Assembly: GCA_033032865.1 (NCBI GenBank)
Contig: JAWHQI010000239.1
Coordinates: 3,382,001 to 3,446,000, forward strand
DNA length: 64,000 nucleotides
Reading direction: 5' to 3'
Origin: Dactylorhiza incarnata
Lineage: Eukaryota; Streptophyta; Magnoliopsida; Asparagales; Orchidaceae
The notes beneath the pieces are model-generated. The model saw nothing but the letters and a program-made list of their open reading frames with translations, searched no databases and was not told where the DNA came from. This document shows positions 1,267 to 50,077 of this stretch, one piece after another (positions within the stretch are counted from its first letter, which is position 1; the number at the start of each line of letters is the position of its first letter). The position numbers and the translations under genes were made by a program.

Positions 1267-1286
1267 ATAAAAGTTTAAACATTGGT

Positions 1287-8338: not shown

Positions 8339-11300
8339 GCTTTGTCCTAATTCTCAACTATCCGACGAGAGCTCTATTTGATACGGGTGCATCACACTCT
8401 TTTCTGTCTGAGGACTTCGTGGTGCGAATCGGAGTGCCATCTACCTTCGTAGAGGATAGATTAGAAGTAGTGCTACCCAATGGATCTCGCATGTCTGCGG
8501 ATAGGAAGAGCCGTGTGAAGGTGCGGATCGGAAATCAAGATTTCGATTTGGAAGCATCGTTGTTGCCGTTAGCTGAATTCGATGTGATCTTCGGCATGGA
8601 CTAGCTCTCGGAGCAGCGTGCATGCATAGATTGCAATTCTAAGGAGATCACTCTAGGAAGGAACGCCGATGGAGAAACCACGTTTGCTGGTATGCGAGGA
8701 GCGAGCAAGACGCTGATGTCTGCTCTCCAAGTGGTTAAGGCGGTGAGAAAAGGCGCCGAGTTGTTCTTCACCTTGTTGGAGGCTTCAGAGCCAAAACCCA
8801 GGTTATGTGATGTCCCAGTGGTAGCGGAGTACGCCGACGTGTTTCCTAACGAACTCCCTGGGGCTCCGCCTCAGCGAGAGATCGATTTCTGTATCGAGTT
8901 GGTGCCAGTGCCAAACCTGTGGCCCGCTCACCGTACCGGATAGCGCCAAAGGAATTGGCAGAGCTGAAGGTTCAATTGCAAGAGCTGCTAGAGCAAGGCT
9001 ACGTACATCCAAGTTCTTCGCCTTGGAGTGCACCGGTCCTCTTTGTGAAAAAGAAGGACGGGAGCTTGCGTCTATGTATCGATTATCGAGAGCTAAACAA
9101 GTTGACCGAGAAGAACCGATATCCGATTCCAAGAATCGATGATCTCTTCGACCAGCTGGTTGGGTCGACGGTATTCTCCAAACTGGACCTAAGGTCCGGC
9201 TATTACCAACTGCGAATTAGGGAATGTGACATTCCAAAGACAGCGTTCAGTACCCGCTTTGGGCACTATGAGTTCACGGTGATGCCGTTCGGTCTGTCTA
9301 ACGCACCGTCGGTATTCATGGACTTAATGAATAGGACATTCCGTGAGTATTTGGATCAATTTGTGATCGTCTTCATCGACGACATTTTGGTATACTCTCA
9401 ATCGGAAGAGGAGCATGTAGGGCATCTACACGCAGTTCTGGGCACCTTGAGGAAGAGTCAGCTATATGCCAAGTTCTCCAAGTGCGAGTTTTGGCTACAG
9501 TCAGTAGCATTCCTTGGTCACGTCGTTAGTGGAGATGGAATTGCGGTTGATCCGTCGAAGATAGAAGCAATCCGAGCCTGGCCTTTGTTGAAAAACGTAG
9601 CGGAAGTCCGAAGTTTCTTAGGACTTGCCGGCTATTATAGGCGCTTTGTGGAAAACTTCTCGAGGATTGCACTTCCTCTCACTAAATTGACTAGGAAAGA
9701 TCATAAGTTCGTTTGGTCGCCCGAGTGCGCACGAGCTTTTGAAGAACTGAAGAGCCGTCTGACCACGGCGCCCATTCTATGCTCGCCATGTGGTACGGAA
9801 GGCTACGAAATCTATAGCGACGCCTCGGGGAGTGGTTTGGGTTGTGTCCTAGTGCAGTTCGGTAAGGTAATTGCCTACGGCTCCCGGCAGTTGAAGGTTC
9901 ATGAGAGGAATTACCCGGTCCATGATTTGGAGCTAGCGGCCGTGGTATTTGCTCTTAAGCTTTGGAGGCATTATTTGTATGGCGTGAAGATCGACATCTT
10001 TACCGACCACAAGAGCCTCAAGTACTTGCTAGATCAAAGGGAGTTGAATATGCGACAGAGGAGGTGGTTGGAGTTCCTTGGGGACTACACCTTCGACATC
10101 AAATATACTCCTGGAAAGGGAAATGTAGTTGCGGACGCGTTGAGTCGTCGGGCTCCCGCTCAAGCAAATTGGATTTTGATGCACGATGAGCGTCTAATCC
10201 GTGAGCTGGAAGAAATGGAGATCATTTGCGTTGATCGAAGAGCGTCTACTTCAGCATGCTTGAACTGGACGGAGGTTCAATACCACCTTGCCGACCGAGT
10301 TCGACAGGCATTGGAGCTGGATGAGAGCATGAAACGCTACAAAGCGGAAACCGTTGACGGGTTGAACGCTGATTTCTCTTTCGAAGATGGCCTTATGTGG
10401 AAGAATGGCAGATTGTGTGTCCCAGACGTTGGTACTCTACGGGAGGAATTGATGTACGAGGCTCATCATACCAAGTACTCTATCCACCCGGGGAGCACGA
10501 AAATGTACATGGACATGAAGAAACTTTTCTGGTGGCCGGGTATGAAGAAGGACATTGCCCTCTACGTGGCCAAGTGCAACACTTGCGCGTTGGTGAAGGT
10601 GGAATGTCAACGTCCCGGTGGATTTTTGAAGTCCTTGCCGATTCCGGAATGGAAGTTTGACGATATTTCGATGGATTTCGTGCACGGATTGCCGAGATCG
10701 CAGCATGGAAACGACGCCATCTGGGTGATCGTGGACAGACTGACAAAAGTATCGCATTTTATTCCGAACCGGAAGGATGATTCTGTAGAAAAGCTAGCGA
10801 AGCTCTATGTCGATAGTATTGTGCGGCTGCACGGTGTCCCTCGTAGCATCGTCAGCGATCGTGACGGGCGTTTCACATCGAAAGGTTGGAGGCTTATCCA
10901 TGAACTGTTGGGCACTAAATTGAAATTCAGCACGGCCTTCCACCCGCAAACGGACGGACAGACCGAGAGAACCAACAGGACTATGGAGGATATGCTCCGA
11001 ATGTGTGCTCTAGATTTTGGAAAGAAGTGGGAAGATCATCTCTATATGATCGAATTCGCCTACAATAATAGCTACCAAGCCAGTATAAAGATGGCTCCTT
11101 TCGAGGCCCTCTATGGTAAGAAGTGTCGTACGCCGTTGTCTTGGGCAGAAACGGGCGATACTAAGCTATTAAAGCGAAAGGATGTTGAGGAAGCAACTTC
11201 GACGATCCGAACTATTCGGGAAAGGCTATTGATTGCCCAGGATAGGCAAGCAAAGTATTACAACGCCAAGCATAGGAACCTAGAGTTCGCCGTCGGTGAC

Positions 11301-11783
11301 CGGGTTTACTTGAAGATCAAACCGTTCAAAGGGGTATCAAGGATCCGACGCTTGAAAAAGCTCAGTCCAAGGTACTTAGGACCGTTTGAGATTGTGGAAC
11401 GTGTTGGTGATGCGGCTTATCGGCTTGCACTATCTGCAGAGCTGAGCGGTCTGCACGACGTGTTTCACATTTCAGTTCTGAGGAAGGCAGTGCAAGAGCC
11501 TACTCATATCGTTGCGGTCGACAGAGTGTCGGTGGATAGTGGGTTGTCGACGAAAGTCAGACCCTTACGCATCGAGGATACCGAGGTAAAGCAGTTGCGG
11601 AACAAGTCCATTCGGATGGTAAAGGTCCGGTGGGATAATTGCGGCCGAGAGGAGCTAACTTGGGAGAGAGAGCAAGCGATGCTTGCGGAGTACCCCGAGC
11701 TATTTCCCTCAGGTAAATTTTCTTTAAAAACTGTAATTTCCTGCTATTACTGTTTTCGAAATTTCGGGACGAAATTCTTTTAA
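8339..11783 (+). pseudogene. pol: Tekay Pol: protease, RT, RNase H, integrase, chromodomain-like tail
   Basis: Domains in order: aspartic protease (LFDTGASHSFLS, DTG intact; FDVIFGMD); RT from about 8919 ([41 protein letters not shown] as the YxDD-type active site near 9375, [11 protein letters not shown]); RNase H ([34 protein letters not shown]); and integrase with its zinc region ([18 protein letters not shown]), catalytic core ([29 protein letters not shown]) and the [18 protein letters not shown] barrel. The C-terminal [18 protein letters not shown] is a degenerate chromodomain-like end. TAG at 8602-8604 replaces the conserved Trp after GMD, and a 1-nt deletion near 8911 shifts the frame before RT. 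From 8919 on the frame is uninterrupted for more than 950 codons. Confidence 0.93.
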
Positions 11784-11795: not shown

Positions 11796-13772
11796 TGTAA
11801 CACCCCAAAGATCGTGGTTCAGCGAGGTAGGCGGAATGGTGGTGTTGCGCTCGGGATAGGCTCAAGATTCCAGATCAGGTCAATGCGCACGACCATTGTC
11901 CTCTTAGCGCACGACCAGTGAGCGTGCGCCAATGATCGTGCGTAACCCGCAAAGAATCGGAGTTCTGTCTCGGCTTATGCGCACGACCATTGTCCTCTTC
12001 GCGCACGACCAGTGATCGTGCGCCAGCGATCGTGCGCCCTGTTTATTCTGTTCCGCGATTTTGAGCGGAGAAGAAGATCGGACCGTCCAAATCTTTTGGG
12101 ATTTGATCCAACGGCTAGGGTTAGTTGCGGGAGACCTTTAGGGCTGATGAGAGGGGGTTAAACCTCATATTCTCTAAGTCATTCTCTCTCCAAACCCTAG
12201 AGAAAGAAGGAGGAGCCAAGGAAGAAGAAGGGAGATTCCGCCATTGACGGAGCTCCGGAGCTCCGTTTCGCGAACCGTTTCCAGATCTGGAGAGTGCATC
12301 CCGGTGTGGTTATTTCCCTCCGTCTAGAATCTCGGATCCATGGCGAAAAAGAACGCTCCTAGGGTAACGATTTCTTCTCCCGTTGTTTGGACTTGTCTTT
12401 TGTCCTCCCCTTCGTTTCTCTATGCTTGCATGAGGGATCCCTTTCACCAAATGGGTGAAGTGTAGGATTCCCTCAAGTTCTCCGGAACTCCGGGTCGATT
12501 GTGTCCGTCCCCGGCATATTGCATGTAGAAAATCCGGTAGTCGTGAGGATTTAGGCATTTTGTGTGAAGCCTATTCGTGGCCGTGAGCCCGAATCGGTGA
12601 TGCTTGGATTGCGACGTTGCATTTAGGTTAAGCCTAGAATGCGTGCCGGAGAATGACTCCGTGAAATCATCTATAGTAGTGCGGGATTTAAGTGTAGGCG
12701 TCTTGGGAAGATCCTAACGAAAGCCCCATGCTTTGAGATTGGATGAAGGCAAACCTTCACCGCGAAATTGATGCGGAGCGTATTATACCTCCCCTTTTTG
12801 AGTATTTGTGAAGCCTAGATCCTTGTGAAGGGATTAGGTGCGTAGCTTATATTTGTGTAGCACTTGAAGGTGCTAAACCCTTACGGGCCGAGGCGAAGCC
12901 GAACCCGCGTCGTGCGACAGATCGCGACGATTAGAGCACGGGCAAAGCTAAACCGAACCCGTTTCCATGCAGATCGGTAAGAGGTCCCTACCTCATGTAG
13001 CCGTGTGATCATGGGAGAGGTCGTGGAAGGTGGTTTACCTAGACCGACCAAAAGCTCTTTTTCCCACATAAGGCGATGGCCCTTACGGTGGAGTGTTTGT
13101 GGAATTGATGTTGTTAGCCTCATGCGGTTGTTTAGGCGGTTGCGGGGAACCTTCGGGTGAACCCAACCAACATCATGTGCATACCTAGGTTCCCTCCTTT
13201 TTTATGCTCAACCTAGAAGATTGAATGTGCTTGAAACCTCACCTGGTGTAGTTGCACTTTCTTTATGTTAGTACTTGTGCTGGTATGGCTTGCTTGCAGG
13301 GTAGAATCTCCGCCACCCCGGGAAAGGGGTGGGGTCATTATAATTTGGTCAGCTGTGCTGACCGTTACCTTGTTTGCCACCGCTTGGTGGAATGTTCTTA
13401 TGCAGGTGCAGGTGAGCCTAGCGGGAAATAGCGGGCGGTGGCCCCTTTTGCTGAGTTGGCCCTTGAAGGCCAGCCTCCTTTTTAGCTTTCTCATGTATTG
13501 CCGGCCTGCGTGCCGATGTATGTTTTGGAGTTTTTGGTACATTTGCTAAATGTAAGGCCTTAAGGCCATAACTCTCTTTCTTGGTTTCATTCCTATGATA
13601 GTGGACAATTCTAATGGAAATGTTAAATCTTTGTGCTTCCGCTAGTGTTTAGTATACTCTGTTGTAGTTTCTTTCTGTTTATCACCTTTTAACTCCTAGC
13701 TAGTGTGGTTAGTATGGCATGGGGTCCCGGCCGGACCTACTGTTATATTATTCGTACTGGCAGGGTGGTACA
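11796..13772 (+). repeat. 3' LTR of Tekay element H
   Basis: Same length as the 5' LTR, with about 33 substitutions and no net indel. About half the substitutions fall in the first 220 bp, in and around the GCGCACGA inverted-repeat block. The GCAAC duplication follows immediately. Confidence 0.95.
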
Positions 13773-24606: not shown

Positions 24607-27147
24607 TTAATGTCCCTTAGGAGCCCAAGATGACTTGGGTCCTAGGTTCTTGTTAGCACAATCAAATGACCATACTCTAGCTGCACCCTTTGCAGGAAGG
24701 TTCATCTTTGCACATGGCACATTAGTGTTGTGCCAACAGTCTATGGCAAAGTGTCCCACTTTACCACAACACCAACATTCATGAATGTTGTATCTCCTCT
24801 TCTGATCATTTCTTGATGGATGTGTAGCATAGTCCACATGTTCAGGAGGAGAAACAACAACATTCTTCCTGTTCCTCTCAGCAATGATTTGACTGAATGT
24901 CAATCTGTGTGTTGTCTTGATGTTCTTTGTCCTGATGGCATCAGCTTGTAATGACTTGGCAGTCATACAAGATTTGATGGCATCTGGCACTGAGCAATCA
25001 TACATGTTTACAGATTTGACATCAATCATTTTCTTGACTGATTCAACCTTAGTAGGGCTTGCCTTCTTGTTCTTGAATGAGGGGGCTGAGGTACCAAATA
25101 CAAAAGGTCCATGTTGGGCCATTTGAATTTCCTCATGGGGAGCCTTTATGGCACTCAATCCCATTCCCTTTCTTCCACTATGGGAAGGAGCATTTTCCTT
25201 CCTATAACAACTCCCATTTTTTCAGTGACCATAAATGCTTTCATGGTCATACTTGTTGGAAGGAAGTAACACCTTTTGAAAGGTGGGATGTGGCTTATCC
25301 TTCCCCTTGCTCTTCTCTCCACTCCCTTCGCCTACTTCCACTTTATTGAATCCTAGTCCTCTCCTATTGGTTTGAAAGGAGAAGGTGTCAATAATAGGAA
25401 GCACAGATTTGGGCTTGGAGAATTGAGCCACCAGGCTCTTCTCCTTCTCAAGCTTTTTCTCAAGGTCCTTGATGACCTTGTTCTTCAGGGAAATAGTGCT
25501 TAATTGCACAACAGTTAACCCCTGTAAATGGATAATTTGTCTACTCATCTGAGCCACCAGGGTGGTAGGTTCAGTGTTGACATCCTTAGTCATTTTGAGG
25601 GAAACAATTTCCTGGGCTTGCCTCTTGGCAAGCTTCTTGCTCTTCTTCAGAGCCTCCAAAAGAACACCATATTTGTCAATCAATTGATTGAGTTCTTCCT
25701 CAGCTTTCTTGCTCCTTCCATCAATTGATGAAGGTGCATAAGATTCTGGACTATTCTCATAATTAGTAATAGAAGTGGAATGAGATAGTTCATGAACATT
25801 GTCAGAAGTATTCTGACTCCCTTCCTCATCAGTGAAGGCCATAAGGCCTAGCTGAACAATGTCCTCTTCATCCTCCTCTTCATCACTATCTGAGTGTGAG
25901 AGAGGGGCCCTTATTCCAATTATAACAGCTGGATAATCTTCATCTTGTTCTGGTGCAAATAGCCCAATGTAGGCTTATTCTTCATTCTCTGAATCTGATG
26001 TTGAAGGATCGGATTCACTCCAGCTCATTTCTTGCTTTGCTAGGAGGGATTTTTCTCCCTTCCTATCCTTGTGGCGATGATGCTTCTTTTCACCACTATC
26101 ATTTCTTTTAACTTGACAGTCAGCTATGACATGTCCAGGCTTGCTGCAGCTATAACAGATTATATTGTTAGAAGAATGTTTACTAAATTTAAAGTCATAC
26201 CTGTCACCCTTTGGGTGATGTCTTTCTGATTTGCTGCTATCCTTTTTGTTGTGTGATGATGAGGAGGGCATGTTCTTCCACTGCTTCCTCTTCATCATCT
26301 TCTTGAACTACCTTGTGAAGGCAGCAAACTCCTCATCAGAGGAAGAGCATCCTGAGGTGCTGACTTCAGGTTCAGCACTTCTCCTAGGAGGAGACACCAT
26401 CCTGCTTTTGCTTTTCTTGGAGCTGTCAGCTTTGAGAGCAACAGATTTCTCCCTTGCTTGAGCCCTTGAAGAGGTGTCCTCTTCCTTCCTTGCAGACAGA
26501 TGCATCTCATAGGAGAGAAGCTTCCCAAACAGTGTGTGAGTTGTGGTCTCACCTAGCTTGGACACTTCCCTGATGGCACATATCTTTGTGTCCCAGTCTC
26601 TTGTGAGAGATCTAAGGAACTTATCATTCAGCTCATAATTGGTGAATGCCCTCTCATAGGTTCTCAACTCATTAACTGTTCTGAAGAACCTCTCATAGCA
26701 CATGGATATGCTTTCTTGGCTCTGCTGTCTGAAGGCTTCATACTCTTGATTAAGGAGAGACTTCCCGTCATCCCTAAATTCAGCTGTCCCTTCCATATAT
26801 ACTATCAAAGTATCCCACATTTCCTTGGCAGAAGTGCAGTATACCATGTTTTGAAAGGTGGAATCATCAATAGCATTGACAATGATGTTCTGGGCCCTTT
26901 TGTCCATGGTGAACAACTCAAGTTCATCCTTGGTCAAATCTTTGAATAATTTGGCCACTTTTCTTGTTGGATCTATAGTGGATGCAGTGTGAAAAGTAAA
27001 AGGTCCTTCTTCAACTGTAATGAAGATCCTTGGATCAGATGCTTCCATAAACAACATGATCCTTTGCTTCCATATGCCAAAATTCTCTTTGTTGCATATG
27101 GGAAACTTCATGGACCTCATTTCCTTCTACAATCCAGAGGAGGCCAT
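24607..27147 (-). pseudogene. gag: SIRE-like Gag of element A, two zinc knuckles and a coiled coil, four stops
   Basis: An 846-codon frame from the ATG at 27147 to TAA at 24607 with no frameshift. Four in-frame stops interrupt it: codon 7 (27127), 26308, 25975 and 25222. Each is explainable as one base change from the codon in related copies. Order: UBN2-type capsid region (FPICNKENFGIWKQR, AKEMWDTLIVYMEG, LNQEYEAFRQQ, LTRDWDTKICAIRE), first knuckle CYSCSKPGHVIADC, an acidic Ser-rich region, a long coiled coil (LLEALKKSKKLAKRQAQEI, VIKDLEKKLEKEKSLVAQF), a FSFQTNRRGLGF motif, and second knuckle CWCCGKVGHFAIDC. The end, SSWAPKGH, matches the WVPKG Gag terminus next to protease. Two knuckles around a coiled coil is a SIRE-lineage layout. 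Confidence 0.9.
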
Positions 27148-27213
27148 TGGGATGTGATTTGACTAAACCTTTTAGGAACTGGTCAGACTGTTAAGTTCTT
27201 TTTGACCAACCTA

Positions 27214-27225
27214 GCTCTGATACCA
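27214..27225 (-). other. Primer-binding site of element A
   Basis: TGGTATCAGAGC on the minus strand, two bases from the LTR. A perfect match to the initiator tRNA-Met complement. Confidence 0.9.
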
Positions 27226-27272
27226 CTTGTGAGTTTATAATGTTTGTAGTCAAAATCACCTAGAGGGTGGGA

Positions 27273-27294
27273 GGGGGGGGGGGGGGGGGGGGGG
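27273..27294. repeat. 22-G homopolymer in the U5 signature
   Basis: The conserved CCTAGAGGG...TGAATAGG signature of these LTRs, here expanded to 22 consecutive G plus two shorter runs. Other copies in the window have 6-12. Confidence 0.9.
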
Positions 27295-27482
27295 TGAATA
27301 GGTTTCTTTAAATTTTCCTCTAAGTACCCTAGTTATTTTTTGTTTAGTTTAAGCAATTCAACAAACACAGAAAGCACATAAGTATTTATAGTGGTTCCCC
27401 AAAGACAATGTGTCTATGGGTAGTCCACTTACCCCCTTCACCCTTCTAACAGTGTGTTAGATAGGGCCAACTCCTCCAACTC

Positions 27483-27826
27483 AGCTCCAAGAGCTTACAA
27501 CTCAGATCCCTCAAGATCTCTCAGGTTTTCCCAACCCTACCTCAGGCTAAGCAGCCCTACAACTCAGACCTCACCAGGTCCTACAACTTAGGCTAAACAG
27601 CCCTACCTCAGGCTAAATAACCTTACCTCAGATCAGCACTTGATCCTACAGCTCAGACCCCTTCCAGGTCCTACAACTCAGAGAATTTCTCCTCCTACAA
27701 CTCAGGATATGAAGCCCTACAACTCAGATCAACAGATCCTACACTCAGGCCTTCAGCCCTACAACTCAGAACCCTCAGGTTCCTACAATCTCAGACCAAA
27801 AGGTCTTACAACTCAGGCAAAATGCC
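27483..27826 (-). repeat. Array of 16 small hairpins with covarying stems
   Basis: Each 20-25 bp unit is a short inverted repeat plus the linker CCTACAACTCAG (+ strand). Stems include AGCTC/GAGCT, AGATC/GATCT, GGTT/AACC, GGCT/AGCC, GACCT/AGGTC, GATCA/TGATC, GAGAA/TTCTC, GAACC/GGTTC, AGACC/GGTCT and GGCA/TGCC. The stem sequence changes from unit to unit but pairing is kept. The array lies between the TATA box and the primer-binding site, so it would be in the RNA leader. Confidence 0.85.
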
Positions 27827-28124
27827 CTACAGAAAAGTGAGTATAAAACTTACTATAGTTGACAGCAAGTCCCCTGTAGTTCCTGCACAGCTTGTGCTTC
27901 CTGTAGCTGGTGATGTTGATTTCAGCCACTAACTGATCTTCTTCTTCAGATGAAGGTTGGAAGATCTCCCTGCTCTTTCTTGCAAAGGAGTAACTTTTTA
28001 TCTCTTCTTCTTCTTACTTGTTCAGTGAGCAGTAGGAGAGAAGACAAGAGCTTCAGCTATCAATGAAACAGTTGATTTCTTTTTGCACGCGACGGAGAGG
28101 GTTCAAATGTGCCCTAACTCTTCC

Positions 28125-28132
28125 TTTTATAC
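28125..28132 (-). promoter_or_regulatory. TATA box of the LTR of element A
   Basis: GTATAAAAGG on the minus strand, with CG-rich palindromes upstream and the hairpin array downstream. Confidence 0.6.
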
Positions 28133-28214
28133 ATCTCTGATCTTCAACGGCTCTTAGCTGTCCTTCTGAAAAGTATGAGAGAAACTGGTGGACCCCACAC
28201 AGCTTTTCTGCAAC

Positions 28215-28625
28215 TTGCGCCACGGGCAGAACACGCAATCTGCGTTCAACGAACATGCTGTACTGTGTTCCATGAACTTGCCAAACTCTGCGGTCGACAA
28301 ACTTGCCAAACTTTGCGTTCGACGATCTGCCCAAGTCTCTGCTGATTCTTCTATCTCGTCTCAGCGGTCGACGAACTGAGTTCTGCGTTCGACGATCGGC
28401 ACTCTGCGTTCAACGAGCACGCCCTTTGTGTCTTCTTAGCGACTCCTTCTTTGGTCTCGTCTCAACGGTCGACAAACTGAGTTCTGCGTTCGACGAACGA
28501 CACTCTGCGTTCGACGAACACGCCTTTTGTGTCTTCTCAGCGGCTCCTTGTTTGGTCTCATCTCAGCGGTCGACGAACTGAGTTCTGCGTTCGACGAACG
28601 ACACTCTGCATTCGATGAACACACC
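28215..28625. repeat. TTCGACGAA-type palindrome array in the U3 of element A
   Basis: About ten copies of (CTGCG)TTCGACGA(A) and CGGTCGAC(G)AA at spacings of 25-40 bp, interleaved with GTCTCAGCGG. It includes two near-identical repeats of about 120 bp (from about 28440 and 28565). Confidence 0.85.
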
Positions 28626-28657
28626 TTTCTTTCCAATCTGCACGCTGCTCCTTTCCC

Positions 28658-28679
28658 GTCTCAGCGGATCCGCTGAGAC
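28658..28679. repeat. Perfect 22-bp palindrome GTCTCAGCGG/CCGCTGAGAC
   Basis: GTCTCAGCGGA/TCCGCTGAGAC is identical to its own reverse complement and is followed by further CGTCTCAGCGGTT copies. It lies in U3 of element A. Confidence 0.9.
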
Positions 28680-29074
28680 AGTGACCTCGTCTCAGCGGTT
28701 TTGACCCTTCGTCTCAGCGGTTCTGCTGAGACAAATCTTCATCTCCTTGTAGATGATTTCTCCACATCTAAGGGCATGTTTGGCCCTTCCTTTTGAGTCA
28801 CATGTACCTGTATATACTTTACAAGTATAGCTTTATCAAATACAATATGTACTTAGCATTGAGAGTGATGCCTCTTCAAATCAAGGTAATATTGAGGGCA
28901 ATATTCCCAACAGGAGGAATTATTTGTTGGTGTTTCCATGGTATTCTAGAAGTGGTCAAATATTTAGTCTCACTGCAAACGCGATATGAGCCTATGGGGT
29001 CGCACAAAAGAGTGCTTGGAGAAATTGGAGGAAGAATCCTGTTGACAAGGGATCAGATTAAAGGGATCAAATTA

Positions 29075-32085: not shown

Positions 32086-32154
32086 TGGTTACAGATTTTA
32101 ATACTTAACCTTGTAGGATCTGGTCAGACAGTTATGTCTTTCTTGACCAACCTA

Positions 32155-32166
32155 GCTCTGATACCA
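32155..32166 (-). other. Primer-binding site of element C
   Basis: TGGTATCAGAGC on the minus strand, two bases from the LTR end. Confidence 0.9.
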
Positions 32167-32354
32167 CTTGATAGTTTATATAGGGTATAGTCTTAGATGC
32201 CTAGAGGGGGGGGGTGAATAGGTTTCTTTTATTTTAGGCTAGTTGTTTTCTTAGTATAGGTTAGTTAGTTATCAAGCACAGAAAACACTCAAGGATTTAA
32301 AGAGGTTCCTCAAGACAGGGTGCCTTGAGTAGTCCTCTTTCCCCCTTCACCTTT

Positions 32355-32600
32355 CTAACACTAAGTTAGACAAGGCCCAACTTCTCCAAACTCAGCTCCA
32401 AGAGCCTACAACACCGATCCCTCAGGATCTCTCAGGTTTTCCCAAACCCTACCTCAGGCAGAACTGCCCTACAATCTCAGAACTATTAAGTTCCTACACA
32501 GTCAGGAAAAGATGCCCTACAAGCTCAGAACTATTAAGTTCCTACACACTCAGGCAAAGATGCCCTACAAGCTCAAAACTATTATGTTCCTACATGAGTA
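32355..32600 (-). repeat. Hairpin array in the R-U5 of element C
   Basis: Units include CTAAC/GTTAG, AGCTC/GAGC, GATCC/GGATC, GGCA/TGCC (twice) and GAACT/AGTTC, separated by a CCTACA-CTCAG linker. Same layout as in element A with different stems and fewer units. Confidence 0.75.
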
Positions 32601-33044
32601 TTAGGGTGGAATTATAATCAGAAGATAAGAGATAATGATCTTCAGCTTCTGAACAGCTGTTGTTGCAGTCTTGAATCAGGGAGGAATAGAAATGCCTCAA
32701 CCTGATTCTTCTTGACCCTTTTCTTCAGATGAAGGACTGGATAAGCTTGCTCTTTCTTGAGTTGAACACCAAGAGCAAACACTTCTCTCCTTGCATCCAC
32801 TGGTAATCAGAAAGTGAAGCTTCTTGGCTGCCGACAATGGAATAGTAATCTTCTTTTCTTTTTTGTGTGATGGAGAGTAAATGTGTGAAGAATAAGTTAT
32901 ACAAAGCCCTAACTTATCCTTGTATACCCAGATCGTCTTCAACGGCTCTTAGCTGCCCTTCTCACAGGTATGGGAATGATTGGTGGACCCTAAGAACCCT
33001 TTTTGCAACTTGCCCCAACAGCAAAACACGCCAGATCACTTTTG

Positions 33045-34001: not shown

Positions 34002-34189
34002 TGTTAGTAATGGAACGTTCACCTAGAGGGGGGTGTTAGGTGATCTGGGTTCTTTTAAAACTATTTGCGCGAGTTTCGAATATTCAAGCACAGCACAAAA
34101 ATATCGCACAAATAAACACAGATGAAACACGCCAGACGACACAAGATCTATAGAGGTTCCTCAAGATGAGGAGTCTTGAGTAGTCCTCT

Positions 34190-34590
34190 GTCCCTCTGCG
34201 CCTACCCAGCAGTGTGCTAGGATCGGCAAACGACGCCAAAAACTTCAGGCCCTCAAGCCTTACAACACGGACCCGCAAGTCCAACAGCCTAGGCCCACAA
34301 GCCCCTACTGCCTCCGAGCCCGCAAGCTCGACACTCAGGCCTTTAAGCCCTACACAACACAGACCCGCAAGTCCTATTCCTATAGCCTAGGACCGCAAGC
34401 CCCTACTGCGCCCGAGCGCTCAAGCTCGACAAGATCGGACCCGCAAGTCCACTACCCTGGCCCTAAAGCCACACAGCTCTCCAGCCCTCAAGCTAGACGG
34501 TGTCGGACCCGCAAGTCCACTGCCCTGTCCCTCAAGCCTCACAGCTCTCCAGCCCTCAAGCTAGACAAATAGGCTCGCAAGCCTTACAAG
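34190..34590 (-). repeat. Hairpin array with covarying stems, element D
   Basis: Fifteen or more units of the form stem - CCGCAA, CCTCAA or CTTTAA loop - stem. Stems include GGAC/GTCC, GAGC/GCTC, AGGC/GCCT, TGGC/GCCA, AGC/GCT and AGGCT/AGCCT. The loop core is nearly constant (C-C-N-C-A-A) while stems vary in a complementary way. The 5' LTR copy is at about 50285-50610. Confidence 0.8.
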
Positions 34591-39185: not shown

Positions 39186-41198
39186 GACAAATTACTTCCC
39201 CTTAGGTACCCAATATGGATTGGGTCCTCGGTTTCTTTTAGGTTGGTATAAAGGAACACTAAACCTTGGAGGGTTCTGCACTCTCTTTGCATTGAGCTCT
39301 GTTGGGTTGAACCAACAGTCCAAGGCAAAGTGGCCTACTTTCCTACAGCACCAGAATTCATGTCTGTTGTATCTTCTCTTCTGCTTCACCATCTGAGTAG
39401 GGTGGCAGTGTTGATGAGCAGAAGAGCATGCTTCTTGCCTAACAGATCTTGGGTGAACCTCATATGTGTGAGTTTGGGGTGGAATTGGTCTCACCACATT
39501 TTGATTCACCTTCTTGGGAACAGGCTTTGTAGGAACAACATTTCCCTTACTCTTAATTGTTGTTGCTGCAGGTTTGTGGGCTGAAGGACTTGACACCAGC
39601 ACCTTCTTGTAGGAAGGTTTAGCTTCAGAATCTTTCCCCTTAACTGTCTCCTAAATTAAAACTAACACCAGCTCTGAACTGTCCAGAGAAGGTATCAATG
39701 ATAGGCAGGATAGTTTTGGGCATTGAGAAGCTTGATGCAAGTTTCTTCTCAGCCAACAACATTTCCTCAAGGTCTTTGATGACCTTGTTCTTCTGTCCCA
39801 ATTCAGCATTCTTAAGCCTTATGGCTTCCTTGAATTTGTCCACTTCTTTGCTCATAGCAGACAGCTTCTCAGTTGTCTTCTGGAGCTCAGATTGAACAGG
39901 CTTCAAGGAATCTAACTCCTTGGTCTGGACTTTGAGGAGTTTCTTATAGCCCTTGAAGGCTTTCCACCAGGCTTTGTATTGCCTTATCAGTTCAGATTCA
40001 ACTTCATACTGGTATCTTGAGGCTGTGCTGTTGGCGGCAGACACATCCTCATCATCATGCAAAGAATCTGCTACTGATTTAGAATCAAAGTCAGATAGAG
40101 GAGTTCTGTTGGTTACCTTCCCAGGAGAGATGTCATCCTGGTTCCCTTCATTGATGGCCATCAATCCAATAAGTGCCTCATCCTCAGTCCAGAGGAGCTT
40201 GAGTCAGAGTCACTCAATGTTCTTGTCTTCTTGGCCACGAACCCTTTTTCAGAGTTCCTCTTGCTCCTTGAGCTTCTTCTTTCTTCATGGTTCCTTGACT
40301 CCTTCTTCTTAGAAGGGCAGTCAGCAGCCATGTAACATGTTTTGCTGTAGGAATAGCAAATAATATTATCAGAGTTGGATCTGTACCTTTCCTCCCTGGG
40401 AGTTTTGGATCTGTGACGATAGTCAGATCTTCTGGAGCTTGAGGAGGAGTTTCTGTGACTGTCCCTCCTCCTTCTGTGTATCAGCTTCCTGAATTGTTTT
40501 GAGAGGAGGGCCACCTCTCTATCAGTATCATCAGAATATGAAGAGCTATCTTCTGATTCCTCACTGCTCTCAGATCTGCTCTGAGTTGCAGAAATCTTTC
40601 CCTTGGATCTTCTGGTGCTCTCAGCCTTTAGAGCCATAGATCTGTTTCTTGATCTCACCTTTGAGCTTTCTTCTTCAGCCTTCCTGGTGTTGAGCTGAAG
40701 TTCATGTGACAGTAGCTTCCCATACAGATTTTTGGGCTCCATGATGCCCAGTTGAACCATCTCTCTGATGGCACAGATCTTGATGTCTCATTCTTTTGTG
40801 AGGGATCTGAGAAACTTGTCATTTAGATCAGAGTTGGTGAACTCTCTTTCGTAGTTTCTCAGACCATTCACTATCTTGAAAAATCTCTCATAGCAGTTGG
40901 AGATTGTTTCATTCTTGCCTTGCTTGAAGACCTCATACTCTTGGTTGAGAAGGGATTTTTTTATCATCCCTTACCTCTTCAGTACCCTCCATGTATACGA
41001 TCAGGGAGTCCCACATCTCCTTGGCCGTTTTCCAGTGAAACAGATTTTGGAGGGTTAAGTCATCTACGTCACATACAATGACATTTTGTGCCCTCTTATC
41101 TAGGCCTGCCAAGGCTAGCTCGTCCTTGGTCATTTCCTCATATTTCTTTACCACCTTCTTTGTTGGATCAATGGTGGAAGCAGTTTTAGGGATAAAGG
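39186..41198 (-). pseudogene. gag: Gag of element D, main part
   Basis: Continues the gag start at 50008 after CACTA element J. Order: KKYEEMTKDELALAGLDKR, AKEMWDSLIVYMEGTEEV, a Ser/Arg-rich linker, a first knuckle that has lost two ligands (CYSYSKTCYMAADC instead of CX2CX4HX4C), a coiled coil (ELIRQYKAWWKAFKGYKKLL, VIKDLEEMLLAEKKLAS), and a second knuckle with its first Cys changed to Phe (FWCCRKVGHFALDC), ending NPYWVPKGK before protease. Several frame changes occur (about 40930, 40760, 40164). Both RNA-binding knuckles are therefore defective. Confidence 0.88.
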
Positions 41199-41201: not shown

Positions 41202-41640
41202 CACTACAACAAACTGCACTTATAGTAAGGACCTAATTCGTTACAATAAGTGCCAAAATTCGTTACAAAAACTCTTTGGTAACGAAAAAAACTTTAAGTA
41301 ACGGTCCTCCTCTAAAGCTCGACGCTAAAGGTTATTGTAACGAATGTATGCATTTCGTTACAAATAAATTAATTGTAACAAATGATACTTTCTCACCAAA
41401 AAGAGATTCTTCCTCACAATAAATTGGTCACAATAAATATTATTTCGTTACGAATGTTATTTTTTCCTCACAAAAAAATAGTTACGATTAAAACTATTTC
41501 GTTACAAATGTTTTATTTTTTCCTCACTAAAAATAAACTAAATTCGTTACAATAAAGTATAATAAATAATATTTCGTTACAATAGATTAAACAATAGTAA
41601 CGAAAAAATCGTTACATTTGTTTTCCATTCTTCTTACTAT
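41202..41640 (+). repeat. Left terminal and subterminal repeats of J
   Basis: TIR followed by about fifteen copies of TTCGTTACA, GTAACGAA or TGTAACAAAT in both orientations, the expected transposase-binding region of a CACTA element. Confidence 0.85.
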
Positions 41641-44600
41641 AGCCAATTCATTTATATATCAATAATATTCCATTTCTATTTTTTGTGTACCTGAGATTTT
41701 ATGACAAATAATAATCTTGAAAACACACATATATTTAATATTTTGTAACAAGATCAACATGTATTTATTCACACCAAAATGTATTACATAGAGTACAAGT
41801 TATTATCATCTCTTCTAAAATAATACAATATTACATTACAAGATCAACATGTTTCTAATAAATCTTCCGTCATTTTTCGAAAAATGAATCGTCCATCACT
41901 TTCTGACTAATGAATCTTTCGTCACTTGTCGGTCAATGCTCGAGCACCCTACAAATAAAAGAGAGCAATTAAGATCACAAAATTCAATTCAGAAAAATGG
42001 TCATTAATTCAATACAGAACTAATCATTTGAATTTCAGGGGAAAAATAGTACTTAATCAACATCTATTCCCACCAGAGCAAGCTACGGGGAAAGTCCTAC
42101 AGGTTTCAAAGGCATACTTTCAAACTGCTATAGAACTTTCAAAGGCCTTTTTACTCCTGCTATAGAATTTACTTTAAGCCTGAGCTATTTTTACCAAAAG
42201 GGCCATTCAAAGAAGATAAAACAAGAGACAACATACATGATCTATCTAAGCATATGAACTCCTGATTTTTTTCTCTTCTATTAACTTCCTTCTTGGAAGG
42301 CTGAAACAGGTTCAGAATGGAGATGAATCAGGCACAACTACTAATGTTATGCTTCTTGTACTTTTAAAAAGAGTACTTGATCATTTCTCATGTTGGAGAC
42401 TCACATGCGGAACCAAAGAATGTTAGAAGTTACTAAAGGAGGTATTAGCTGTAGTTTTTATGTCAATTTTTTTTGAAACTAAAAGAAAAGAGTCGGTGAA
42501 GTAAATACCGCCTAGATGCAGAAGCAAAGACAAAAATTGGTTCAACTGGGCTACACTTCGAGTCCACAACACTTCATTGCAACGCTAAAGTGATAAGAAG
42601 AAATTTCACATATTATGTTCAGAAACTATCTAGTAAAGAACCTTGGGAATTCTTGAGTGGTATTTAGATCACAGACAACTCTCTTAGCATCAACATTTCA
42701 TGCTTTGATACCTCCATCAGCTATACCTATGAGCAGCTATAATAAAGAGAATGTAGAAAAACCAAAAATACAAATTTCATGCATCCTCTTTATTAGGTAA
42801 ACCATTCAAAAATGCATAAGACAGAGAGGGGGGGACTCATAGCATGAGTTAAATTACCAAGCGGACAGATCTGCATTCCCATTCAAGTAACAATATCTCA
42901 GCCCCACAGTATATAATTGCATTTCTATATGTTGGCGCAGATGATCCATATGTCCGAATCCTAGAATGATTTGATCGCAAGAATGAAACCTGTAAATAAA
43001 AGACTACAAACTTTAATACACCAACAAAAACATTTAAGCAAGTTGAGTTTTCAGAAAATAAATAAAGGAATAAAGGTGAAGCACGCCACTGACATATTTA
43101 TCTTCATTCATAAAAACGAGTTGAGTTTTCAGAAAAAAATATTAGAACAAGAAATTGACACATTAATAATGTGTTTGCTTCTGATTTTTACCCAAGCAAA
43201 GCTATGATCATATGCTCTTTATGTAAATAGATACCCCCAAAAAATAAAAAACGTTCTTGATGGTCATACTGCTGAATAGGTTTGACTATCAGTGATTTAT
43301 GGATAGGGAATAGCCAAATGGGTGGAGATCTAGAATTCTTGATGGTCATCTTACATTTAAAAAGCTTATTTATATCATTCATGGTATATTTAAAACCACT
43401 GCTATGATTTTTCTCATTACTGTTGACTGTTATCTTCCTAAACGATACTTTTAGTGTTTTAAATTTTATATATGTGTGTGTGTGTGTGCCCGGAATAAAA
43501 ATATGTTCCCGGAATAAAAATATGTGCCCCGAATTTTATATATTTGAACCAAAATCGTACAAACATATGTGCCCGGAAAAAAAATTGAATGAAAAAGAAG
43601 CAAACAACTGAATAGATGGATCCAACATGCCGCAACAAATACTATATAATACAATCAGTGAGATAGTCTGCACCAAATGATATTGGGAAGGTAATTTTAT
43701 GGAATAAATGCTGCAAAACTTGAGAATAAATATGAACTGAATAAACATGTCAGCCATAGTGATCAAACATTAGAAGTCCTGTACTAATTACAAATATTAA
43801 AACCTTCACTCAAAATGATTTAGGCAAAAGAAACCCCCCAACGAAGATGACTTCCGGCTTAAAAACCCACATCAGGTGCAAGATGAAGAGAAAATTGGCT
43901 CAAATGTTCTTAAAACTTAGCATCCACGGCTTTCAAAAGGGGGTAGAAGATCAAAAATGTTATGTGCAGCAATGTTGTCCCTTCATATCTGCTCACATCA
44001 AAATGAGTTGGATCGGCTTCCAGTTTTTTGTTCCCATATTTTCGTAAAAAGAAATTATATACGAACCCCTGAGGTGGAGCAGGTTGATGGTGTGATTTAT
44101 TCATTTACCCCACCACATGCCTATATTATAAAATAGCAGAGAATGTTCATCCATTCATCGCATCTCGCGTGATGGTCGTGCTAATGAGGCTAATGATAAA
44201 CAGCAGCAGAGCGTAGCTCATCCATTCATCGTTTTCTTGGCTATTAATTAATGGGAGGAAATAAATCAAGTGATAATGCAAATGGCATGGATCAAGCCAT
44301 GATGAATTAAAACATCCATCATTCTATAGCTGCTAAATCTCCACCAAACACTCACATATCACGGGCTTTGCCCGTTCGCACCCAAGGAGGATTTACCTTG
44401 GGTGTTCACGGGCTTCGCCCGTTCGCGCCGCATTCAAGCGGGCTCCGCTCGCAGACCAACGGGCTGGGCCCGCAAGCATATTTGGCAGAGCGGCGACATG
44501 CGGCGGGGCGGCGCATGCGGCGGGGCGGCGACATGCGGCGGGGCGGCGACATGCGGCGGGGCGGCGACATGCGGCGGGGCGGCGACATGCGGCGGGGATG

Positions 44601-45364
44601 CAACATGAGTTCAGTGCAAGAACTGAATAAAAAACAGAGCTCATCGTGTCTCTCATTTTGATGTTAACTTGTATCTCGAAGCAATTCAAGCTAATTTAGT
44701 GAATTCGTCAAAGTGTAAGTGATGGAATCATCAGAATTAATTTTTTTTCAATGAAGATGCTAGTGACGCGGAACGAAATCGGACATTAATTTGTTGTTTT
44801 GAACATGGTTTCCAGATAACATTATGATGTTTGTTCACAATAAAAATGAAATTCTAAACAATAGGAATTAAATTATATTATGTGTGGTAATCTATGTTAG
44901 ACATTTGTGATTAACATATGAAATAAATCATATTCTGTGTGGTAATTTATGTTAGACATGTTCAAAGCAAGAAATGAATTAAATTATGTCATTATGACAA
45001 TAGATCAAACACTTTCAGTGCAAGAATTGAATTAAAAAAAAACATAGAGTAGAATGAAAAACTTAACTCACCTGGTAGCTCCAAATTAAATTTCTACCAC
45101 AACCTCCCTATAAAGTTTGTTTGTACATCTATCTGCTCAGATAAAAATGACTTGGATTTAAATCTATCCATTGTTAAAAATGTAAGAGTTTAAAGAGTAA
45201 AGTAGTAGAGAACCGTTTGGAGTAAAGCCATTAATTTTTCTCCCTCCTCTTTCTTTTTGAGAAGAAACTGATTCTGATGAAATAAGTAGAGAATTAAGAA
45301 AAACATCCAGCACTTCCGGCACCATTGGGTTGTTGAGGGCGTGCGAGAAGGAATAAAAACACAC
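41641..45364 (-). other. AT-rich interior of J with scattered exon-like pieces
   Basis: No continuous gene. On the minus strand a possible coding piece at 44104-43910 (QGFVYNFFLRKYGNKKLEAD) and a possible last exon at about 41954-41925 after a TTTGTAG acceptor are seen; neither is recognised. A (GT)n tract and 19-bp repeats (CCGGAATAAAAATATGT) lie at 43470-43530. The rest looks like introns or filler. Confidence 0.35.
44361..44600. repeat. GGGCTTCGCCC hairpins and an 18-bp GC-rich tandem repeat
   Basis: ACGGGCTTTGCCCGT, ACGGGCTTCGCCCGT, GCGGGCTCCGCTCGC and a related copy (44360-44475) precede about five tandem 18-bp units GCGGGGCGGCGACATGCG (44488-44597). The MRRGGD-type peptides these could encode are repeat artefacts. 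Confidence 0.85.
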
Positions 45365-45756
45365 CTTGGTGTAGGCTGTTCGAAGTCACCAAGGGAAGAA
45401 GTGCTTTGCCGAGTTTTCTCTCTGGTGTCTGCTCGGCCGTTCGAAGCCGCCAATGTTGCGGTGCGGGAAGAGTAACCTCCTCTCGACCTCTTCTCTCGCC
45501 TGAAAGCCGCCGATGAACCTTCACTGACGTCGCACTCTTCCGCAAGTCCTGATGCCGACGGTGAGAGAGTCAACGCTGGTAGGAGTTCATGCGAGGGGTT
45601 TGTTAATACTTCGGGTGAGGAGCAGAGCGACGTCGAGGATTCGGGAGAAGATTTTGTCGAGGCTTCGGGTTTGGGGGAAGCGAGGGCAGGAGGCTGACGG
45701 GAGGAGCCAGGCGGGAAGAAGGCGCCGGGAGCAGCACGACGCGATGGGAGCAGCAC
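45365..45756 (-). other. GC-rich possible first exon inside J
   Basis: A 390-bp GC-rich island reads openly on the minus strand from ATG-like 45756 (RRAAPGAFFPPGSSR, then Ser/Pro-rich) to a consensus donor CACCAAG|GTGTGT at 45365. Composition is quite unlike its AT-rich surroundings, as for the 5' end of a captured gene. The protein is low-complexity and not recognised. Confidence 0.35.
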
Positions 45757-45804
45757 GACGACGCCAAGAACGCGATCGAGCAGCTGCTAGCTAGGTTATG
45801 TGAG

Positions 45805-46825
45805 CAGTGAAACGAAGAGTCGGCCTGAATAAATGAAATAAATTTGGGGCGGGGAGGGGGAAATTTGGGGAAAATTTTTAATTTCCCTCCATTATTTTTA
45901 GATTTCTTAATAATAATTTTTTTTTGGCATAATCATGAATGATGAGTTAATATATAAAAAAATTGGTCGGAGACGCTGCCCCTTGACCGAGCAGCGAAAC
46001 CCCCGAAAACTTTGCGTATAGGCCGCATTTGATGCGAGGTTGGGTAATGGAAACCTCGAAAACTCAATGTATGGGCCACATCTGTTACGATGCTGGGATC
46101 TCTCATCTTAGACTATTCACCTGCTAATCGGCTCATCGACGTAGACAACTTCGTCGCTATCGCGAGTCATGCTCTTATCTTAGAACATTTGCTTAGTGTG
46201 TCTTATCAACGTAGTTTTTTCTCCCTACAAAAAGAAATGTTCGATATGATCGTAGGGTATTCATGCAATAGTAACAATTTGATGAGATCATTGGGGTGGG
46301 GGTATCAGAGTGAAGAGTCGGCTGCCTTGAGGAAATAAATGAAATAAATTTGGGTTAGGGGGGAATTTTTAATTTCCCTCCATAATTTTCAGATTTTTTA
46401 TTAGTAATTTTTTTGGCATGATCATAAATGATGAGTTAGTATACAAAAGGAAATTGGTCGGGGACGCTGCCCCCTTGACCCCCATCAGCTGATCATCACC
46501 GGGCAGTGGAACCCCCAAAAACTTTGTGTATGGGCATTTGATACGAGATTAGGTAGTGGAAACCTCGAAAACGCTATGTATATATGGGGCATCTGATACG
46601 ATGTTGGTATCTCTCATCTTAGACCATATATTCACCTAATCGTCTCATCGGCGTACGTATGTAGACAACTTCGTCGTTATCGCGAGTAGTCATGCTCTTA
46701 TCTTAGAACATTTGCCTAGTGTGTGTTACCTACGTAGCTTCTTCTCCCTACGAAAAGAAGTGTTTGATATGATCATAAGGCCGGTATTCCATAGTAACAA
46801 TTTGATGAGATCATTAAGCTGCAAC
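45805..46825. repeat. Tandem duplication, unit about 505-515 bp
   Basis: Two units (45805-46309, 46310-46825) share AATAAATGAAATAAATTTGGG, TAATTTCCCTCCAT, GGTCGG(A/G)GACGCTGCC, AACCTCGAAAAC, CTTCGTCGNTATCGCGAGT and CAATTTGATGAGATCATT in the same order, with roughly 10-15% divergence. No coding signal. Confidence 0.85.
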
Positions 46826-46889
46826 CCGAAGAATGATTACATGATGTATGTGTACCAACACTAACATTTAAGTTTGTGGAGATTCAATG

Positions 46890-47345
46890 ATGTCGCGCTC
46901 ACCGTCTGCCGCAGCCGTCTCCCGATCATGGGAGTGCGGATAGTCAGGTGTATGGTGATGGGTGTGCGCATTGCAAAATACCCTATCATGGCGATGCGCA
47001 GAGCCAAGCGTATGATTATATTTATGCGCATAGCAAAACACCCCCATCTTGAGGGTACGGTGCGCATATATAGCCAAGCGTAGTTATGGGTGGTGCTCAT
47101 AGTAATTAAATGCCCCATCATGGGGGTGTGCATAGCCAAGCATATGGTTATAGCGCATAGCGAAATACCCCATCGTACATGCATGGGTGTGTACATATAG
47201 TTATGTGTGCATAGCAAAATATCCGGCCATCATGGGTACCGGTGCGCATAGCCCCAAGTAGTGCATGATTATGAGTGCATGTGTGCATAGCAAACTACCC
47301 ATATCATTGGAGTACGCACATAAGTGTATGGTTATGGGTGTGTAC
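46890..47345. repeat. Degenerate minisatellite, period about 60-65 bp
   Basis: Six or seven imperfect units around GTGTGCGCATAGC(A)AAATACCCCATCATGG and GCGCATAGCCAAGCGTATGGTTATG. Units differ by many substitutions and small indels. Confidence 0.75.
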
Positions 47346-47559
47346 GTGCATATAGATAAGGCTGATATATATCATCAACTTAAACATGCATAATGTGTGT
47401 CGTATACGTACTTCAAGTATTTCATGCATCATGCTCACTAAGTACATGACGTGATTCATGTTCAATCATTTGATAAATGATAACTATATCACTCATATCC
47501 CTTTTAACAAAAGATCTTATGAAATGTTAGATAACAAATTTTGACAAAAGATCATGTGT

Positions 47560-47927
47560 TTTGATGATGTTTTTGAAAAAATCGTCACGAAAGATAAACA
47601 TGTATGCTGACGTGTTTTCATGCAAAGCGTGGCTAATGCTAAATTTTTATATTGGCGACGTTTTAAAAAAAAATTGTCGCTAAATGTAAACTAACGACGA
47701 CGTTTTCAAAAACGTCACAATAAAAACATTACTTTAGTGACGTTTTAAAAACAATCGTCACAAGAGCTAAACACGTATGGTGACGTTTTCCTTAAAAACG
47801 TAGCAAATGCTATTTTTTTGCATTAGCGACGTTTATGGAAAAAATCGTCGCTAAATATAAAACTAACAGCGACGCTTTCAAAAGCGTCGCAAAAAAAACG
47901 TCGTCGTTGAGACTATATCTTGTAGTG
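47560..47927. repeat. Right end of a second CACTA family inside J
   Basis: The sequence ends GACTATATCTTGTAGTG at 47927 (reverse complement CACTACAAGATATAG). It is preceded by more than ten alternating GCGACGTTTT / GTGACGTTTT and AAAACGTCGC motifs in subterminal-repeat fashion. No matching left end was found in J, so it is a truncated copy or a captured end. Confidence 0.7.
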
Positions 47928-47946
47928 CATCTCGCGCGCGCCTGTA

Positions 47947-48250
47947 AGAAAAATGCGCGCTCTGGCAAAAACTTGTATCTGTGTGAAAAATGCACGTCCG
48001 CAAAAAGATGTGTGATTGGGATAAAATACACCTTGGAGAAAATGAGTGCCGATGATTCGAAAATGCGTGTCAGGGTAAAAACGCGCTACCAAGCGAAAAT
48101 GCGCGCTTGGGAGACAATGCGTCCGGTCAAAAATGCATGCAAGTGCAAAACGTGCGACTGGGCATAAAACGTGAGCTCGAGCAAAAAACGTGCGCCGAGT
48201 GAAAAAAACACGTGCCCGCCCGAAAAAATACTCTCACGGGCCAAAAATGT
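47947..48250 (+). repeat. Short-period array: A-tracts alternating with GC-rich motifs
   Basis: About 17 A-runs of 4-7 occur every 16-21 bp (mean about 18), separated by GCGC-, CACGTG- or TGCGT-containing segments. Sequence is degenerate but the rhythm is regular. Confidence 0.7.
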
Positions 48251-48684
48251 TCTCCCGAGCCCGCGCCGTGCGTGCCCTTGTGTTCGGAGGTGGTCGCACG
48301 TGCGCACGGGAGTGTCTTTGCGTGCGTGCGGGGCCCGTGCACGGTAGTTATTTTTATGCTAAAATTATGTTAATAAATTAATGTCAAATTGACATTCATT
48401 TTAAATTTAATGTTTTTAATTATTGGATTTTTTTTTTGCAAAATTTTATGAAGAAAAATTTTCCTCCATATATTTCATTCTTGTAAGAGAGAGGAGGAGA
48501 GGAAGAAAAACTTATATAAAGAGGTTTTTAAAGTTTTATAAAAACTTTATATAAAAATGTTTTTAAACTTTTGAAAATGACTTACTTTAAAATGATTTTT
48601 TGTTAAAACATAAATGTTTTTGAAATAAATAATTATAAAATATTGATGTATATTTTTTTACGGTCATTTTGAGTACTCATATGT

Positions 48685-48845
48685 ATATGTTGCGGGCGAA
48701 GCCCGCCGTCGCCGGCCGGGTACTGTAGAATGCGGGCACAGCCCGCTCAAATGCGGGCACAGCCCGCTCGAATGCGGGCACAACCCGCTCGAATGCGACG
48801 CAATCCGCTAAGAGTCAGCGAGCACGGGCGAAGCCCGTGCGGAGC
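48685..48845. repeat. GCGGGC-NAA/ACA-GCCCGC hairpin array
   Basis: TTGCGGGCGAAGCCCGCC, then three AATGCGGGCACAGCCCGCTC-type units (the third is GCGGGCACAACCCGC), a decayed unit and GCACGGGCGAAGCCCGTGC. Each is a 6-8 bp stem with a 3-nt loop. Related hairpins occur at 44360-44475. Confidence 0.85.
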
Positions 48846-49032
48846 TGCTCGTAAAGTTTTATATAAAAACTTTATATAAAATTTTATACACGTCTGAAAG
48901 ACATTGCTACAGCTCTCAAATGAATGTTTGTGTGTTTGGTTATCCGTGTTTGTGTGTGTGCATGTGTCTGTGTTTGAGCCCCGACACATGCAATACGCGC
49001 TAGCTCTCAAGCGAAAAAAGGAAATCGACACG

Positions 49033-49105
49033 CACGAGAGTGCATTTGCGTGTGCGCGAGAGTGCATTTGCGTGCGCGCGAGAGTGCATTTACAGGCACG
49101 CGGGT
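49033..49105 (+). repeat. Three tandem copies of a 24-bp unit
   Basis: GAGAGTGCATTTGCGTGTGCGC and two variants follow one another directly. Confidence 0.85.
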
Positions 49106-49559
49106 TCGTGCGTGATTTTATTTTAATTCCAAAATTATATTAAAAAATTAATGTCATATTAATTTGCATTCATTTTTACATTTAATATATTTTAATTTTA
49201 ATTTTTGTTTTGTTCAAAATTTTATGGAGGAAAATTTTCATCCGTATATTTCATTCATTCATGTGAGAGAGAGATAGAGCTGCATGGGAGAGAGGCAGAA
49301 AAACTTTTATAAGAAGTTAAAGATTTATAAAAAACCCCGTACGCGCAAAAATACATACATGTCGCAATAGTACCACATATTTGCGACAGCCGCGCATGGA
49401 TGTTTGCGAGCTGTAGGAGTACTGTCGCCGCGTTAGAGCACTATCGAGGCGGGGTACTGTCGCGCATACAAATTTTTTTTAATAATAATTCAAAACTTTG
49501 ATAATAAAATAGTACAAAAATTGAAAATAAAATATGATATATTTTTTGTAACAAAACTT

Positions 49560-50008: not shown

Positions 50009-50063
50009 AGTGAGTCGTTCCACGATCTAGATCAGACGGTTAAGTCTTCTTTTGATCAACCTA

Positions 50064-50075: not shown

Positions 50076-50077
50076 CT

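Follow-up and report, generated by a model that had tools for sequence, protein, structure and literature searches.

Sireviruses, which may occupy much of a plant genome (21% in maize B73; PMC10760457), carry a set of LTR motifs described by Bousios et al. 2010 (PMC2829016), of which the PBS junction, the polyC signal and the TATA box are shared with element A, the retrotransposon studied here, which also has palindromic repeats upstream of TATA. The repeats described in that paper lie upstream of TATA and keep to a single sequence within each element; the term "hairpin" is absent from it, and its consulted sections show no R-U5 array. Secondary structure is likewise concentrated in the LTR at the small-RNA hotspots of maize Sireviruses (PMC10760457, PMC5311732), where, in the available text of these papers, a shared palindrome, CACCGGACNNNGTCCGGTG, lies in the cis-regulatory region of the LTR, whereas the stems of element A are specific to each unit and are located downstream of TATA.

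The window, the whole 64,000-nucleotide stretch of Dactylorhiza incarnata DNA that was analysed, contains many nested retrotransposons, among them element A on the minus strand, to which an initial annotation had attributed an array of mini-hairpins in the RNA leader. Element A is a Sirevirus-type copia retrotransposon. Its PBS junction reads CA-AGTGG-TATCAGAGC on the minus strand, matching the Sirevirus form CA/A(T or G)TGG followed by TATCAGAGC, its TATA box lies near the middle of the LTR, a plus-strand G run at ~27265-27294, close to where the LTR ends on its 3' side, represents the polyC-rich integrase signal, and its gag is of the copia type (PF14223, E 1.2e-19). The core of its upstream palindromic repeats is of the TTCG/CGAA type in place of the Sirevirus CGG-CCG, a core also missing from one of the 13 Sirevirus elements considered in the accessible part of PMC2829016. 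The partner LTR was found in locus L015, about 35 kb away, and the 3' part of the element is largely beyond the window. The gag open frame extends over 26308-27120, and a CCHC-like stretch was spotted by eye in the frame at 24607-25164. An ATG at 27147, 27 nt ahead of the gag frame, meets an in-frame stop after six codons (27121-27147), a position at which the corresponding frame of element B stays open; because of this early stop, the element A copy is presumably degenerate and dead. Elsewhere in the window we observed a young retrotransposon with 98.3% identical LTRs (4894-6870 and 11796-13772), whose long pol frame spans 8919-11783, and, at 53182-53502, tandem repeats in which the TTTGCCGTGGC-like units measure 38 and 56 nt.

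Table 1 Positions of the leader, array and LTR features in the window.
Element	Feature	Position	Strand	Remarks
A	5' LTR	27229-28914	(-)	Flanked by TSD GGAGG, as is the partner LTR
A	Palindromic CGTTCGACGAACG-type repeats upstream of TATA	28263-28628	(-)	
A	TATA box	28125-28131	(-)	
A	Leader, start placed from TATA	27148-28100	(-)	1 AUG in 953 nt
A	Array of 16 mini-hairpin units, R-U5	27480-27830	(-), RNA sense = minus	79/80 stem cells standard (RNA sense, five pairs, G.U allowed)
A	Conserved two-part hairpin	27391-27428	(-)	In the RNA, ~50 nt 3' of the array
A	Primer-binding site TGGTATCAGAGC	27214-27225	(-)	
B	Leader	32086-32895		2 AUG in 810 nt
B	Array of 9 units, related to that of A	32391-32593	(-)	43/45 cells standard in RNA sense, five pairs
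C (3' LTR copy, C3)	Array with constant loop and varying stems	34247-34580	(-)	13/17 loop anchors perfect over three pairs
C (5' LTR copy, C5)	Array	50329-50598	(-)	10/13 loop anchors perfect over three pairs
C (C5)	Leader	50009-50875		1 AUG in 867 nt
D	Four longer hairpin repeats at the same place	3668-3800	(-)	One diverged
D	Leader	3308-4105		0 AUG in 798 nt
	Two-part hairpin, further copies	32302-32337, 34153-34188, 3605-3632		

The 16-unit array had been annotated at 27483-27826, between the TATA box and the PBS, and the mapped positions of both motifs and of the units confirmed this placement. The units are joined by a shared linker, CCTACAACTCAG on the plus strand and CUGAGUUGUAGG in the RNA, and CCTACAACTCAG recurs within the array or on its margin five times exactly and five more times with a single mismatch. 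With the register fixed by the linkers, and with unit 14 counted as one (an automatic parser split it at a linker-like loop, giving 17 pieces), 44/48 inner cells were Watson-Crick and 12/16 units were perfect across the three inner pairs, against means of 19.7 cells and 2.2 perfect units when the 3' arms were permuted among units. None of 100,000 such permutations reached the observed pairing, and with a single unit per distinct 5' arm 27/30 cells still paired (null 10.8). Arms that differ between neighbours thus keep their pairing within the unit, as the initial annotation had claimed, and lose it upon swapping. For unit 10, to which that annotation gave the stem GAGAA/TTCTC, the linker register yields the corrected forms GAGG/UCUC or GAGG/CCUC in the majority of 30 copies. 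Of the 80 cells over five pairs in the RNA sense, with G.U allowed, 79 were standard; the sole broken one, pair 2 of unit 11, is mostly private to this copy, with C-G at that position in 26/30 subfamily copies. In the RNA sense, though not on the other strand, the linker G adds a further pair, G.U or A-U, to the stem in 24/25 units, and sliding one arm lowered the three-pair total of elements A and B from 73/75 to at most 33. When 4-bp hairpins were simply counted per 350 nt the array was no outlier, regions at 48.5 kb and 29.3 kb being equally high.

Comparable arrays were detected in other elements of the window. In element B, 26/27 inner cells were paired (P 7e-5 by arm permutation), and units 4 and 5, when compared directly with those of element A, proved to have changed in a compensatory way. 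Element C is a family of its own in which a constant loop, mostly UUGNGG in the RNA, takes the place of the constant linker; its arrays were anchored on the loop and not on pairing, and the anchors include a few non-unit sites, none of which was dropped. The null means for perfect anchors over three pairs were 3.9 in C3 and 3.5 in C5 (P at most 1e-5), and with a fourth pair added 8/17 anchors remained perfect in C3 (P 1e-5) and 5/13 in C5 (P 0.005). Adjacent stems never match in element C (P 0.03 in C3, 0.005 in C5), an avoidance between neighbours that did not reach significance in either element A (P 0.68) or element B (P 0.34). Among 30 copies of C, the anchor parse with flanks gave 300/548 perfect anchors, of which three stem types account for 298; because many of its anchors fall outside the array, this parse was discounted as a test. 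UGUA was missing from many linkers of C and D. Element C has the TSD ACTAC on both sides, and the flanks of element B read GACCC and TACCC; the gag of C is seemingly split by ~8.6 kb of inserted DNA (41203-49850) into parts at 40757-41184 and 49885-50095. Element E has hairpins and lacks a regular array. An LTR pair at 53717-55038 and 60268-61585, 94.8% identical, was seen to carry hairpins such as UCGCC/GGCGA at the same leader position, without a regular array.

To sample units blind to pairing, the pattern CTACAACTCAG-N6-16-CCTACAACTCAG was searched in the own genome (3.27 Gb, 3,184 contigs), where it occurred 2,386 times and its reversal not once, and the first 100 two-linker units listed were taken. 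Perfect 4-bp stems were present in 63/100, against an arm-swap mean of 12.0 and a maximum of 26 in 20,000 swaps, and in 37/70 distinct units (mean 6.1, maximum 17), with 11 distinct perfect stems in the sample. Allowing wobble raised the count from 63 to 75 with G.U in the RNA sense and from 63 to 65 on the plus strand. The non-Watson-Crick inner cells of the 100 units comprised 21 G.U in the RNA sense versus 3 G.T on the other strand (P 0.0013), an excess that does not settle the strand because in the strict subset (distinct units, two outer inner pairs) it falls to 8 versus 3 (P 0.25). A quarter of the sample was imperfect even with RNA-sense G.U, and we infer that post-insertion decay explains at most part of these units.

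Copies of the A array were then compared within the same genome, 40 of 4,079 candidates being scored and 30 becoming loci, the window included. In these 30 copies 2,185/2,274 cells were standard over five pairs (7-59% with arms slid), and only one of the 2,274 had changed on both sides, such events being few because these closest copies are young. One pair further in, unit 5 has U-A in 21 copies and A-U in 9 and is paired in 30/30. A search with the B array brought more divergent copies, of which 29 were extracted (L044 was omitted, lying at the same place as L047) and the 21 with like unit layout were aligned. Among these, 93.4% of 1,050 cells pair versus 92.6% when shuffled (1/500 as high) and 10.6-56.2% with arms slid, the covariation score was 0.066 versus 0.053 (1/500), and cells changed on both sides numbered 8 versus 3.7 (4/500), seven of the eight representing one inherited flip in unit 5 of 7/21 copies. 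Two of the five covariation measures showed no excess in these relatives (both-side pairs 2 vs 2.0, pair types 16 vs 16.0). Across the 470 units parsed by linkers from 59 loci (60 less L044), full pairing was seen in 25 of the 27 unit bodies present in at least three copies, where arm swaps gave 6.9 (highest value 14 in 2,000 swaps), and 88/148 of all distinct unit bodies pair, against 30.7. The covariation across family copies on which the initial annotation had staked its claim was thus borne out only in part: it is visible from unit to unit and from one subfamily to another, but not within the set of recent copies.

The arm-swap results for elements A, B and C, the pairing-blind sample and the compensatory differences at matching units bear out the proposal that structure is kept rather than sequence, and we regard it as very probable that pairing is maintained in this leader. 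Folding calculations weaken this claim somewhat. The energetic support for a folded array was modest on the RNA strand (z -2.0) and stronger on the other (z -2.8); in the RNA-strand ensemble of element A, 7 or 8 of the 16 stems had a probability >0.5, whereas the complementary strand folded more cleanly (10/16). Local folding of the RNA strand was weak in element B (13/200 shuffles as good) and not above shuffles in element D (53/200 as good). Whole-array folding energy, unconvincing by itself, was set aside as stand-alone proof.

The placement of the array in the transcript was examined through AUG content, with each leader taken to begin ~30 nt past the TATA box and to end at the gag start, and start sites thus set by TATA, which is weak in element B (TATACAA). 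Shuffled leaders of A, B, C5 and D contained 11.0-12.5 AUG, and 0/1,000 shuffles were as low as the real ones, whereas antisense counts (9-12) and U3 counts (8-14) were near the shuffles. The same stretch of the C 3' LTR has 0 AUG in 868 nt, the AUG of C5 being missing there, and around the array, over 90 copies with 30 from each group, the means were 2.3-3.1 AUG in sense versus 7.1-10.0 in antisense. Element E is a weaker case, with 3 AUG in 796 nt against 14 CAT (raw counts). Because the depletion is restricted to the sense strand and begins at the TATA box, the array probably lies inside the scanned 5' leader RNA, as initially annotated, and it is improbable that all transcripts start downstream of it. 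Transcription from TATA-like sites beyond the array (27390 and similar), which would skip it, was weighed and rejected as unlikely, since the depletion starts at the upstream TATA.

Between the array and the PBS, the two-part hairpin (Table 1) occurs with two outer stems, GUGG/CCAC in elements A and D and GAGG/CCUC in element B and C3; in C5 the hairpin has decayed. Genome-wide, the matched outer-stem forms numbered 17,532 and 9,928 (>27,000 copies), and one of the two mismatched forms was found 123 times under a looser pattern. These stem types are inherited classes and not independent events.

How the array might act is suggested by what varies in it. Since the stem letters are free, the exposed G/U-rich letters constant and the pairing kept, the array, as a structured part of the Sirevirus 5' leader RNA, may be a scaffold of weak hairpins of about 4-6 bp that would hold G/U-rich segments single-stranded, namely the constant linkers joining the hairpins in A and B and the constant loop in C. 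Zinc knuckles of retroviruses bind exposed guanosines, and in MoMuLV a UCUG linker adjacent to a stem-loop is the target of a single knuckle, according to the available text of PMC7599994. With this analogy and the CCHC zinc knuckle carried by the Gag of element D, we tentatively favour, at somewhat less than an even chance, a display of repeated putative sites for multivalent binding of the Gag zinc-knuckle domain, which would select full-length RNA for packaging or dimer formation, while the short, weak stems would let scanning ribosomes through when the same RNA is translated. Counted against this reading are the few RNA-strand stems above 0.5, the cleaner complementary strand, the weak folding in B and D, the two flat covariation measures and the lack of a regular array in E. 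A broader version, which we consider rather doubtful, would be a modular Sirevirus RNA device in which each family has its own exposed segment, stems drift compensatorily, unit number changes by block duplication and copy number sets a multivalent packaging or assembly code; if true, such a code would sit at thousands of places in one plant genome.

Close behind the Gag-binding reading, though in itself unlikely, is a locally folding, scannable spacer that no protein reads, in which small self-contained hairpins with different stems would use up pairing potential locally, so that the leader is kept without AUG and long-range structure, ribosomes can scan its 0.8-0.95 kb and no long duplex feeds small-RNA silencing. 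The AUG depletion in four leaders, the short and weak stems and the mismatching of adjacent stems in C (P 0.03 in C3, 0.005 in C5) agree with it, but it predicts neither the constant linkers of A and B nor the constant loop of C, G/U-rich linkers are ill suited to an unstructured spacer, and neighbour avoidance lacked significance in both A and B. Pairing could also arise without function if template switching during reverse transcription or replication perfected mismatched arms by palindrome correction; U-A to A-U flips, which have no standard-pair intermediate, and repeats turning over by block duplication fit such a mutation bias. We consider it improbable, however, given that loops and linkers stay constant in different families while stems vary, that stems of 4-5 bp are short for such correction, and that the sense-only AUG depletion marks the leader, though not the stems as such, as being under selection.

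Were the folded molecule instead the first-strand cDNA (minus-strand strong-stop DNA), with hairpins acting in strand transfer or cDNA handling, the cleaner folding of the window plus strand, which has the cDNA sequence, would be explained; yet the linker pair forms in the RNA sense only, and the wobble counts (21 G.U vs 3 G.T, P 0.0013; 8 vs 3, P 0.25 in the strict subset) lean the same way, making this quite improbable. UGUA and UG-rich far-upstream polyadenylation signals occur in plants, and the A linker contains UUGUAGG in the RNA sense, so that hairpins might keep such motifs exposed to the cleavage machinery, a proposal to which we give slightly less credence still, many C and D linkers being without UGUA. 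Least credible of all are DNA-level dyads bound by a transcription factor: palindromic repeated motifs do occur upstream of TATA in Sirevirus LTRs, but in the accessible part of PMC2829016 these repeat one sequence per element, commonly with >85% identity, whereas here the stems differ by unit and the array is downstream of TATA.

Searches beyond this genome added little. In viral contigs the array pattern had 0 matches and the gag and RT queries 0 confirmed ones, and a protein search with the gag piece returned 2 relatives among 236 candidates. An RT-query relative is encoded in six bacterial-genome contigs, two of which were inspected: L006 is otherwise bacterial, and L003, filed under a Eubacterium MAG, carries at 500-3046 a plant-like copia RT in a Sirevirus-like piece without LTR and is probably plant contamination. 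No Rfam 15 covariance model matched 26900-28950 at E up to 1. In agreement with the initial annotation, no description of such a hairpin array was found in the literature searched, whose coverage omits most subscription journals, nor anything there on how Sireviruses choose RNA for packaging. Our results suggest an undescribed RNA device preserved by shape rather than sequence. One molecule with sixteen variants of one hairpin is in effect an experiment of nature that can tell the letters that matter from the rest, thousands of copies permit covariation statistics that few RNA elements allow, and a nearly AUG-free leader offers a simple genomic sign of transcript starts in silent retrotransposons.

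To our knowledge, no repeat array is known in the Ty1 leader. Ty1 belongs to the same copia superfamily and its leader serves translation, packaging, dimerisation and reverse transcription; it differs in dimerising, according to the title of the source, through kissing loops (PMC5454406). The MoMuLV packaging signal belongs to an animal retrovirus, with which no kinship is claimed, and as described in the accessible text has few stem-loops and no tandem array, but its stem-loops likewise expose a short linker for one zinc knuckle (PMC7599994). The barley copia element BARE, in the available portion of its description, has two TATA boxes, two transcript classes and no hairpin array, and resembles element A in that its leader must serve both translation and replication, separate RNA pools being used for translation and for packaging (PMC3735527).
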